31,949 bases of DNA. Origin: a virus. The stretch's first letter is position 1; the number at the start of each line of letters is the position of its first letter. Of the stretch, positions 41 through 2,399 are shown piece after piece. The notes below the pieces were generated by a model that worked only from the letters and a program-made list of their open reading frames with translations, was not told where the DNA came from and made no database searches. The stretch spans positions 1 to 31,949 of the IMG/VR virus record IMGVR_UViG_3300026531_000053. One strand, 5' to 3'. A program made the position numbers and the translations under genes.

Positions 41-214
41 AGACGTTTGAGACACCTCTTTCTTATTTGTGGCTTATTTAAATGTAATTAAATAATAACT
101 CTCAAATGCTAAATGAAATTCGTTGAGTATAATCAAGAAAACGAGACGTAACACTTTTCCATTCCAGACGTAACACTTTTCCAAGATTTTTTCCATTCCA
201 GACGTAACACTTTT
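41..214 (+). repeat. Left-end transposase-binding-type repeats
   Basis: Three direct copies of AGACGTAACACTTTT start at 144, 166 and 200. The last two sit inside a 26-bp perfect repeat (155-180 and 189-214). A weaker AGACGT site is at 41-46, seven bases inside the presumed left terminus, where Mu has its L1 site. Inverted relatives occur at the right end (31704-31720 and 31793-31808). In Mu, MuA binds several such sites per end, so these are inferred to be the transposase-binding sites. Apart from these and the palindrome at 235-264, the gene-free stretch 34-337 shows only AT-rich sequence. Confidence 0.7.
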
Positions 215-337: not shown

Positions 338-994
338 CTATTTTTCAATCATTAATAAATCCGGTCTATATATATCCTTTACATCCGTTGACGGTTCAAA
401 CGTCGACAACTCCCTATCCTGTGGCACTTTCTTAATGACACCATTGCTAATATCATCAAGCGCCTGCCTCATGAGCTGGACGCCGAGCGGCTCTAATTCC
501 CAAAACCAAAGCTCACGAGCCCCTTCTTTCGGGTTGAGCCAATATTTCGGCTTTATAAAAACATGCCCCTGATACGCAATATCACCACGATCAATACCGG
601 CATTCAGCCAATAGATCGTTCCACCGGTAACTGATTCACGCATCCGGATAGCCCACTCGATTGCCGACCTGCCACGGTGCAATGGTAACAAACTCGGATG
701 ATAACCTATCCACCCATATTTTGCCTTATAGCGTGTCTTTTTGACTACATAGTCAAACGAATGAGCCGCAATACCCAAATCGACACCTTCCGGAAAGTTA
801 TCACCGTTCAACGTTCCGGCAGGTATAATTGGCAATTCATTAATAGCCGCCAATCTGCCGATATACTTATCATCAAGCGGGCAACTAACGCCCATTACTT
901 CAACCCGCGGATGTGCCAAACATAGTGCCAACACATCCTCGCCGAACTTCTTTTGCCCGGCTATAAATACTCGTAATTTATTTTTTATCTTCAT
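338..994 (-). CDS. Formyltransferase-like protein of the terminal accessory cassette
   Basis: 218 residues from the ATG at 994; a GTG three codons upstream (1003) is an alternative start. It has the formyltransferase fold signature of the Fmt/PurN group: HPSLLPLHRG at residues 99-108 and GIDRGDI at 133-139, which holds the conserved Asp (D135). The Asn that precedes the catalytic His by two positions in folate-dependent formyltransferases is Gly here (G97-Y98-H99), so the chemistry may differ from simple formyl transfer. The frame overlaps the end of the GNAT frame by 17 nt, so it is the last gene of the leftward late operon and is coupled to the ATPase-GNAT gene. From context I infer a role in nucleobase modification of phage DNA. 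The substrate is unknown, and methionyl-tRNA formylation is unlikely for so short a protein. Confidence 0.75.
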   Translation of the reverse strand: MKIKNKLRVFIAGQKKFGEDVLALCLAHPRVEVMGVSCPLDDKYIGRLAAINELPIIPAGTLNGDNFPEGVDLGIAAHSFDYVVKKTRYKAKYGWIGYHPSLLPLHRGRSAIEWAIRMRESVTGGTIYWLNAGIDRGDIAYQGHVFIKPKYWLNPKEGARELWFWELEPLGVQLMRQALDDISNGVIKKVPQDRELSTFEPSTDVKDIYRPDLLMIEK

Positions 995-1505
995 AATTCT
1001 CACCTAAATATTTAAATGCCTGTATTGCTCTAAAATGGCCGCCATAACCGCTTCCTCTCATCATTCCTTTACCCGTTCGTTTGATGCTTTCCATACTGCG
1101 CTTTTTATTGGTGCCATAAAGCTGTGCGTTGGTCTGCACCCAAAGTGGAGAGTTGCGTAAGTAATGAGCAAGTTGCGGATGGCTTGTATGAAAAAAAGTA
1201 TGATATTTCTTTCCCCTTCTTCCCTGACCGTCCAAGTGATACTGCATCACCGCATTGAGAAACTGTGTCCCGACTCCTGCGCCTTGCCACTCCGGCATAA
1301 CAACCAGCCGACTCGCCCTATATGCCTTTGCAGTAAATAACGGCATAACGGCCACGTGGGCAACCAACTCGCCGTTTACAGTGCCAACAAAGTATTCGGC
1401 TGCCGGCGGATGTGGCAAGTCTAAATAGTAATGCTCTTTAAAAAATTTCCAGTAACTTCCGTTAACCTTCCAAATATCGAGCTTGATAGCGGGGCGTTGG
1501 AACTT
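978..1505 (-). CDS. GNAT acetyltransferase domain, -1 frame continuation of the ATPase
   Basis: This frame is open from a stop at 1533-1535 down to the TAA at 978-980 and has no ATG or GTG near its beginning; the only candidate is a TTG at 1418, inside the domain. The reading upstream of that TTG (WKFFKEHYYLDLP and so on) looks like genuine domain sequence, so the protein is most likely made by ribosomes shifting from the ATPase frame on the A10 run. The acetyl-CoA loop appears as MPEWQGAGVGTQFL, followed by AVMQYHL. An ABC-type ATPase fused to a predicted acetyltransferase is the known architecture COG2401. The shift product would be 377 residues (202 from the ATPase frame plus 175). By position and fold it is an analogue of the Mu Mom enzyme, also a GNAT-fold protein, but homology is not shown. 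Confidence 0.72.
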   Translation of the reverse strand, partial: KFQRPAIKLDIWKVNGSYWKFFKEHYYLDLPHPPAAEYFVGTVNGELVAHVAVMPLFTAKAYRASRLVVMPEWQGAGVGTQFLNAVMQYHLDGQGRRGKKYHTFFHTSHPQLAHYLRNSPLWVQTNAQLYGTNKKRSMESIKRTGKGMMRGSGYGGHFRAIQAFKYLGENYEDKK

Positions 1506-2110
1506 TTTTTTTTGAAGGATGATGTCCGTGTATCATAAATCCAGTCCGGTTGCAACCACTCTATAATATCATAGTGTGGAGATAATAGAACTACCTTATT
1601 GTTTCCGGAACGCCTCCAAGACTTCTGGAACGCCAAAGCCCCAATTTTGGCAATCTGTCGATCTACCACACTCGTAAATTCATCAATAACCACTTCCTTG
1701 GGCGGTTCTACCAATAGCCGGGCCAAACCCGCCCGGAACTGCTGTCCGTTACTCAATGCTTTGAATGGTCTAAGCCAAGCCGGAACATCTCCAAGTCCAA
1801 CAGAAGCCAAAGCCCCGGTAACCCGGTTAAAATCACCTTCTGGTGCAATAGCATCAACAATAGGCTTATCATCCGGCCAACCCTCATATAGATTTACAAT
1901 CTTATCTCTACCAAAAAACAGTTTTCCGATACTACTTTTTCCGGATCCACTTGGCCCAACGATTAACCCGATTTGCCACTCCATATCCTCAATAGGAATA
2001 TGAGCCGTATGCTCCCAGTTCGCCCCTGTTTCGGCATTAAACAAACTCTTTACCCTGTTAGCACGATAACTGTCAAAATCCGCCGTGCTATGTTTAACTT
2101 CTATTTTCAT
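1421..2110 (-). CDS. ABC-type ATPase, N-terminal part of COG2401-like protein
   Basis: 229 residues if read without frameshift. All ABC ATPase motifs are present in order: Walker A GPSGSGKS (52-59), signature LSNGQQ (119-124), Walker B with catalytic Glu KEVVIDEF (138-145) and an H-loop His (H179). No membrane segments are seen, so this is a soluble ATPase, not a transporter. After K202 the in-frame tail of 27 residues is low-complexity and unlike the family. The alternative -1 frame continues as a coherent GNAT domain, so the tail is probably the termination product of a frameshifting gene. Its ATG overlaps the stop of the 43-residue gene upstream (ATGA). In COG2401 proteins this ATPase is fused to the acetyltransferase; its role is unknown, possibly remodelling or positioning DNA for modification. 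Confidence 0.85.
   Translation of the reverse strand: MKIEVKHSTADFDSYRANRVKSLFNAETGANWEHTAHIPIEDMEWQIGLIVGPSGSGKSSIGKLFFGRDKIVNLYEGWPDDKPIVDAIAPEGDFNRVTGALASVGLGDVPAWLRPFKALSNGQQFRAGLARLLVEPPKEVVIDEFTSVVDRQIAKIGALAFQKSWRRSGNNKVVLLSPHYDIIEWLQPDWIYDTRTSSFKKKSSNAPLSSSIFGRLTEVTGNFLKSITI
1504..1513 (-). promoter_or_regulatory. A10 slippery run joining ATPase and GNAT frames
   Basis: On the minus strand the ATPase codons run TTC AAA AAA AAA AGT. A -1 slip on A AAA AAA gives AAG TTC CAA CGC and enters the GNAT frame directly. The GNAT frame has no usable start of its own. Transcriptional slippage on A10 would also work, and a true indel (a broken fusion) cannot be excluded from sequence alone. Confidence 0.65.
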
Positions 2111-2238
2111 ACATTTACAATTTTTAGCTTTAAACCTTCCTTTTTTAGTTTTTCAAATACTTTCTTTTGCTGCTCTTCTGATTCACAAATCACAATGACT
2201 CCCCATTGTGGTTTGTATTGATATTTTTTCTTTGCCAT
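2107..2238 (-). CDS. 43-residue small protein leading the ATPase-GNAT cassette
   Basis: A short frame starting MAKKKYQYKPQWGVIV and ending LKIVNV. It has a beta-strand (WGVIVIC), an acidic/Gln turn and an amphipathic Lys-rich helix (EEQQKKVFEKLKKEGLKLK), followed by a final strand, so it can form a compact beta-alpha-beta fold. Its TGA overlaps the ATPase start (ATGA), a strong sign of translational coupling and of a real gene. I take it to be a partner of the ATPase-GNAT protein. Its function is not known. Confidence 0.7.
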   Translation of the reverse strand: MAKKKYQYKPQWGVIVICESEEQQKKVFEKLKKEGLKLKIVNV

Positions 2239-2267
2239 ATCTTTATTTTGTTTTAATTTTGCTTTAT

Positions 2268-2353
2268 CTCACACAAAAACAGGCTACCGCCCCAAACCGA
2301 AGACTTTGTCCTCGGCACCTGGGGAGGTAGCCTGTTTCTTGTTTTTGTGTGAG
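2268..2353. terminator. Large nested hairpin between tail fibre and accessory cassette
   Basis: Arms 2268-2288 and about 2326-2353 pair over some 20 bp (core CAGGCTACC/GGTAGCCTG). Inside are CCCCA/TGGGG (2290-2294 with 2320-2324) and CCGAAGAC/GTCCTCGG (2297-2304 with 2308-2315) closed by a TTT loop. Read leftward, the core stem is followed by TGTTTTTG; read rightward, by TGTTTCTTGTTTTTG. It can therefore terminate in both directions. It probably limits how much late transcription reaches the accessory cassette. Confidence 0.65.
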
Positions 2354-2399
2354 AGCTTAAATAAGAAGGTGTCGGGGGCTTTTTTATCTTCTATATAAA

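Follow-up and report, generated by a model that had tools for sequence, protein, structure and literature searches.

A phage cassette combining a ParB-like tail, a frameshifted ABC ATPase-GNAT fusion and a formyltransferase-fold protein, predicted to modify DNA bases

What is the function of the three-gene cassette that closes the late region of a Mu-like phage, in the slot held by Mom in Mu? The window analyzed here is the whole of virus record IMGVR_UViG_3300026531_000053 (31,949 bases), a Mu-like transposable myophage with PHROG matches to transposase, transposition ATPase, terminase, portal, sheath, tape measure and baseplate genes. The cassette lies on the minus strand. It opens with a 43-aa protein (2107-2238), followed by an ABC-class ATPase (1421-2110; 0-frame product of 229 aa), a GNAT domain in the -1 frame (978-1514) and a formyltransferase-fold protein (FT, 338-994). 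The stop codon of the 43-aa ORF overlaps the ATPase start (ATGA), the ATPase and GNAT are joined by a -1 shift into a 377-aa fusion ending at 978, and FT runs from an ATG at 994, giving a 17-nt overlap with GNAT, to its end at 338. The initial annotation had described a tight unit with an ATGA overlap, a frameshift fusion and a 17-nt overlap, and each of these elements was recovered at its place. Pfam recognizes ABC_tran (5e-8), Acetyltransf_7 (1e-6) and Formyl_trans_N (8e-13) in the window, and the cassette matches PHROGs 28816, 11143 and 9240.

The ATPase conserves the Walker A, the LSNG signature, the Walker B DE, the D-loop and the H-loop, and its ABC fold is supported by Foldseek. The GNAT domain bears the motifs QGxGxG and F-x2-H-Y-Y-L, and nearly all of its relatives match Acetyltransf_7/Acetyltransf_1 in Pfam. 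Since the acyl-CoA motif QGxGxG is conserved, acyl transfer is likely. Against the PDB, the GNAT profile gives weak matches to generic GNATs only, and one member matches the TmcA GNAT family weakly (E 0.09). Full ABC motifs joined to a GNAT, together with a genomic link to a ParB-like protein or a part of one, place the fusion in the ABC ATPase-GNAT family; in many divergent relatives a ParB gene adjoins ABC-GNAT. It had been claimed that the ATPase plus GNAT architecture has no established function, which is not quite right, as the pair was already predicted to acylate a DNA nucleobase (Iyer 2013, as reported in PMC7824862). As a prediction, then, ABC-GNAT as a DNA acylation enzyme is already known, and the review names Tenacibaculum phage pT24 for this protein family. 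The pT24 ABC-GNAT is 36% identical to that of the window, and its gene has an in-frame TGA within the GNAT region (L024, about 5756). To this predicted system the window cassette adds FT, a stand-alone ParB tail and a -1 frameshift, none of them mentioned in the passages of PMC7824862 on the family. The literature searched, a body to which Iyer 2013 and Krishnan 2020 do not belong, yielded no prior account of a programmed frameshift, of a ParB tail standing free in transposable phages or of FT in the cassette.

Beyond FT, the end of the phage holds only three GACGTAACACTTTT repeats (145-214, plus strand; chance 0.03), which are probably transposase-binding sites. The cassette is therefore the last late unit and occupies the place of Mom in Mu. 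This Mom-like position, proposed in the initial annotation, is borne out by the transposase in the window, by MuA-type transposases in 23 of the 30 records that have the tail only, and by the location of the cassette just before the end repeats. Mom is expected to have a GNAT fold. The likeness to Com/Mom extends to the transposable phage, the last late position and the small ORF in front, but not to sequence: the kinship to Mom that the comparison suggested is not detectable (hhalign probability 0.1%, E 0.79), the Mu end has neither ABC ATPase nor FT, and the com-mom region of Mu contains nothing that a ParB-tail model matches significantly.

What else can occupy such a slot? In Gordonia Sourvirus and close relatives, the space between ParB and terminase is a hot spot for swapped DNA-modification gene sets (L200-L203; L004/L005 1-7000). 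NHagos and AnClar carry ABC-GNAT and FT there. CaiB, which is 76% identical to NHagos genome-wide (PMC9302106), has instead Tet_JBP (weak, E 6e-4), an amino acid:DNA transferase (5e-27) along with a P-loop nucleotide kinase (8e-59), and PMC9302106 reads these genes as nucleotide-modifying; CloverMinnie shows the same gene layout as CaiB. The Sour slot contains QueC, a QueD-like protein, a radical SAM protein, GTP cyclohydrolase and an annotated TGT, and that of Evaa annotated methyltransferases. Thymine-hypermodification cassettes (TET/JBP, amino acid:DNA transferase, kinase) and 7-deazaguanine cassettes (Que, DpdA-type TGT) thus share the ParB/terminase slot in sister phages, with enzymes entirely unlike ABC-GNAT and FT. 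In Peternella_1 and fF4, Bacteroidota transposable phages with a tail gene related to that of the window, the corresponding end encodes a D12 N6-adenine methyltransferase; close relatives of the window's tail-gene protein were not found in viral contigs.

Modification of phage DNA bases is the leading explanation of the cassette and a probable one, its specific chemistry being a prediction. It leads because of the slot swap, the D12 methyltransferase at the matching end and the published ABC-GNAT prediction, the swap being the strongest argument. The ABC ATPase, identified as such by sequence and fold, most likely dimerizes on DNA and offers a base to the attached GNAT, which would move an acyl group from acyl-CoA to an exocyclic amine, for example adenine N6 or cytosine N4. 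Judging from a position equivalent to that of Mom, of methyltransferase genes and of hypermodification genes, the cassette would make the modified DNA resistant to host restriction. The initial annotation had proposed an undescribed DNA hypermodification system; the modification reading is strengthened by the swap with known DNA-modification gene sets and by co-occurrence of the genes, while its novelty is reduced because ABC-GNAT acylation was already predicted. Against DNA modification count the absence of FT at some loci, a related FT clade that is solitary in chromosomes, the possibility that phage GNATs acylate proteins (PMC7824862) and the lack of a downstream structure able to stimulate the frameshift. 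If DNA modification is true, a widespread phage cassette makes a yet-undescribed DNA base with an enzyme that includes an ABC ATPase. Among Gordonia phages in culture, some have the cassette where close relatives have other modification genes, so that a long-standing prediction can be tested on existing stocks.

Alternatively, the GNAT might modify a host protein, such as RNA polymerase, the ribosome or a defense protein, with the ABC ATPase targeting it and FT formylating an N-terminus or amino group. Phage GNATs may also acylate proteins, and Rac and other phage GNATs are described as acetylating RNA polymerase (PMC7824862); of the GNAT families, moreover, only generic ones match. We consider protein acylation unlikely, since ParB adjacency and the locus swap with several types of DNA-modification set fit DNA far better. 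RNA might be the substrate in place of DNA. In TmcA, an ATPase joined to a GNAT acetylates tRNA cytidine at N4, and a TmcA-like modification of RNA or tRNA could evade tRNA-cutting defenses. The general plan of TmcA and NAT10, with an ATPase coupled to a GNAT that targets a base amine, would be the same, and the weak TmcA-like match noted above agrees with it. However, TmcA and NAT10 have a helicase in place of the ABC ATPase, act on RNA and come without ParB or FT. Both the link to ParB and the exchange with DNA-modification genes favor DNA, leaving an RNA substrate very improbable.

What, then, is the 43-aa protein? Used alone, it gave no match by tblastn in the phage collection, and its homologues were therefore located through position and a local profile. 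They match the last 35-45 residues of full-length proteins whose genes immediately precede ABC-GNAT, and Pfam identifies many of these proteins as ParB_N. The protein (PHROG 28816) is by this homology a stand-alone ParB-like C-terminal tail domain rather than the independent novelty it had first seemed; the ParB_N domain is absent from the window, where only the tail is present. In transposable phages the tail stands by itself; elsewhere it is part of a longer protein, such as the ParB-like protein encoded ahead of ABC-GNAT in non-transposable phages. A MuA-type transposase accompanies 23/30 free-tail records as against 0/17 attached-tail records (p 2e-7), counted with PHROG 310 because Pfam Mu-transpos_C (PF09299) was too insensitive. 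ParB_N occurs in two of the 30 free-tail records, both times distant from the cassette. Among the Gordonia phages tested, those with ABC-GNAT have the tail on their ParB, and those whose ParB precedes other modification genes lack it. Because the tail sits on ParBs beside ABC-GNAT and not on those of sister phages with other modification genes, the most likely role of the 43-aa protein is to dock on the ATPase, and its sequence distribution suggests a docking domain specific for ABC-GNAT.

Porphyromonas phage annotations label the small ORF an acr candidate, a name that looks misleading. The annotation would fit an anti-CRISPR or other counter-defense operon, with the small protein as inhibitor and the enzymes as accessories. 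Such an operon is highly improbable, since other phages have the small protein as the tail of ParBs next to ABC-GNAT, and in the near clade it is invariably found ahead of ABC-GNAT.

FT is assigned to the formyltransferase fold by Pfam, by its AlphaFold model and by active-site conservation. It scores 48.9 bits against Formyl_trans_N (PF00551; 8e-13), with a curated cut-off of 26.1. The model (pLDDT 91) matches the hydrolase domain of 10-formyl-THF dehydrogenase and methionyl-tRNA formyltransferase, the best ones at a TM-score (query) of 0.75-0.79. In classical formyltransferases the catalytic Asn is Asn106 of PurN. FT has Gly100 at this position and keeps His102 and Asp138 (residues numbered from the upstream GTG at 1003), so that it shares fold and active-site His/Asp with PurN, methionyl-tRNA formyltransferase and the dehydrogenase hydrolase domain, but not the complete Asn-His-Asp site, the Asn being replaced mostly by Gly. 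The altered active site seen at first reading proved general: across a 37-sequence alignment the Asn position is always Gly and His102 and Asp138 are invariant, and in a 76-sequence alignment the position is Gly in 65/76 and Asn in 0/76. Does this imply a loss of formyl chemistry? Not necessarily, because 10-formyl-THF dehydrogenase likewise lacks Asn there (aligned Ile).

One-carbon chemistry for FT is a guess. The role put forward as most likely, and only tentatively, is that FT supplies or elaborates the transferred group with a one-carbon unit, and the FT partner points to a DNA-base modification not yet described. Taken further, a base might be modified jointly by an acyl-CoA GNAT and a non-canonical folate-type one-carbon enzyme, yielding a formylated or formyl-acyl base, with stoichiometry set by frameshifting and a detachable ParB-tail docking subunit; as a whole this is possible but rather doubtful.

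Members of the FT clade are about 200 residues long and go with the phage cassette, apart from some that are solitary in chromosomes. Gly-type members stand alone in Oxalobacteraceae and alphaproteobacterial chromosomes (L150, L155, L159, L164-L167, L169, L170, L173, L176, L177), with no neighbor conserved between families; what these members do could point to the substrate on which the phage FT acts. In Porphyromonas-type phages (L002, L006) FT is shortened to about 157 aa, the His/Asp region being kept and most of the N-terminal subdomain gone, and in Gordonia phages (L004 2312-2962) it is annotated as a tRNA-methyltransferase, a name that looks misleading. PHROG 9240 matches in 146/148 flavobacterial-family genomes, presumably through housekeeping formyltransferases, and is therefore unusable for counting the cassette FT.

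How constant is the cassette? FT follows GNAT in 70/77 near-clade loci, a count made on loci fetched via ABC-GNAT; the genome loci were fetched through FT and are biased toward it. FT is absent from the other seven (one degenerate; e.g. L062, L064, L081) and from 7/7 divergent relatives, while the tail is present in each of the 81 near-clade loci whose upstream sequence is long enough. Since FT is missing from some near-clade and all divergent loci, the core consists of tail or ParB plus ABC-GNAT, and FT is a clade-specific addition. The three genes occur together in Porphyromonas, Pseudomonas and Gordonia phages, and the range of the cassette covers prophages of Flavobacteriia and other Bacteroidota, Proteobacteria, Gordonia phages and many uncultivated viruses. 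A search for FT and the 43-residue protein in other phages, proposed in the initial annotation, thus finds both in unrelated phages (FT 70/77, tail 81/81), in counts that are not of independent events, as the loci share descent. Most relatives are metagenomic contigs, and the named isolates agree with them.

The GNAT frame is reached from the ATPase only through a -1 shift at ten A's (1504-1513, minus strand; 0-frame TTC AAA AAA AAA AGT, which contains A_AAA_AAA), a site identified by comparing junctions. Relatives from viral contigs and bacterial genomes share this shift, which recurs across dozens of independent genomes. In 167 loci classified, the ATPase/GNAT junction has a frame change in 58 and lies within a single ORF in 109. 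The shift is -1 in 42 of 44 non-redundant junctions, in the same codon region; the two +1 junctions belong to L008 and the visibly degenerate L020, both of which contain another frame change. An in-register A_AAA_AAA/G slippery site is found at 38/42 of the -1 junctions compared to 1/109 single-ORF relatives (Fisher p about 6e-30, a value inflated by kinship among sequences). The frameshift fusion, noted in passing at first reading, thus emerges as a conserved programmed event. As in dnaX-type frameshifting, an in-register X_XXY_YYZ heptamer is kept at the junction, but no downstream stimulatory RNA structure better than shuffles was seen in the window. Four loci (L016, L033, L097, L133) have the exact dnaX-like A_AAA_AAG, with six A's, a run too short for ordinary transcript slippage, and GC-rich loci (L013, L095, L097; 55-59% over the locus) also carry the -1 junction. 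Firmicutes phages P335, Javan141, Oenococcus, Thomasclavelia and Enterococcus 9184 likewise require -1; of these five the A heptamer was seen in 9184 alone, and the slip site was not identified in the other four.

The junction sequences suggest ribosomal -1 frameshifting on A_AAA_AAR, which would yield ATPase alone and ATPase-GNAT in a set ratio. A separate GNAT made from an internal start is not a general solution, as no ATG, GTG or TTG precedes the HYYL motif in the window or at 27/42 junctions. That the frame change is a sequencing error or marks a pseudogene, and that the window cassette is dead, is scarcely credible: homopolymers are prone to error and L008 and L020 show extra frame changes, but -1 recurs at the same codon region in 42/44 junctions, some slip sites are just six A's followed by G, and the frameshift was confirmed in 13/14 bacterial assemblies tested (G054 is a single ORF), including both cassette copies of the complete Chryseobacterium ZHDP1 chromosome. 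These junction and assembly counts refute sequencing error as a general explanation; a run-length error confined to this one contig could occur. Annotations based on single reading frames will split or truncate the frameshifted enzyme in Bacteroidota genomes. The metagenome-assembled L142 (3880-4998) has an A10 run, yet its two domains are joined in frame, which reflects either a fixed fusion or an error in the homopolymer.

Upstream of the cassette lies a long two-tier hairpin (2267-2354, minus strand), recognized by its folding energy and by an apex shared with relatives. The 176-nt stretch that holds it folds at -64.1 kcal/mol (z -8.7), and Rfam has no match to the hairpin or elsewhere in the window. 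Across many Bacteroidota phages the hairpin is about 88 nt long, mostly at -42 to -60 kcal/mol and usually present once per phage; the apex is conserved as GGAGGAC-loop-GTCTTCT, and the stems differ yet stay paired. From these sequence features it may be a terminator, a leader or regulatory RNA, or the boundary of exchangeable cargo. Its distance upstream of the ATPase is about 200 nt in L009, L012, L015, L019, L091, L115, L119, L129, L137 and others, and about 1.3 kb in L011, L016, L118 and L133. The hairpin also occurs in L197, around 8504, and in phage fF4 it is the DNA methyltransferase that it precedes, by about 100 nt.
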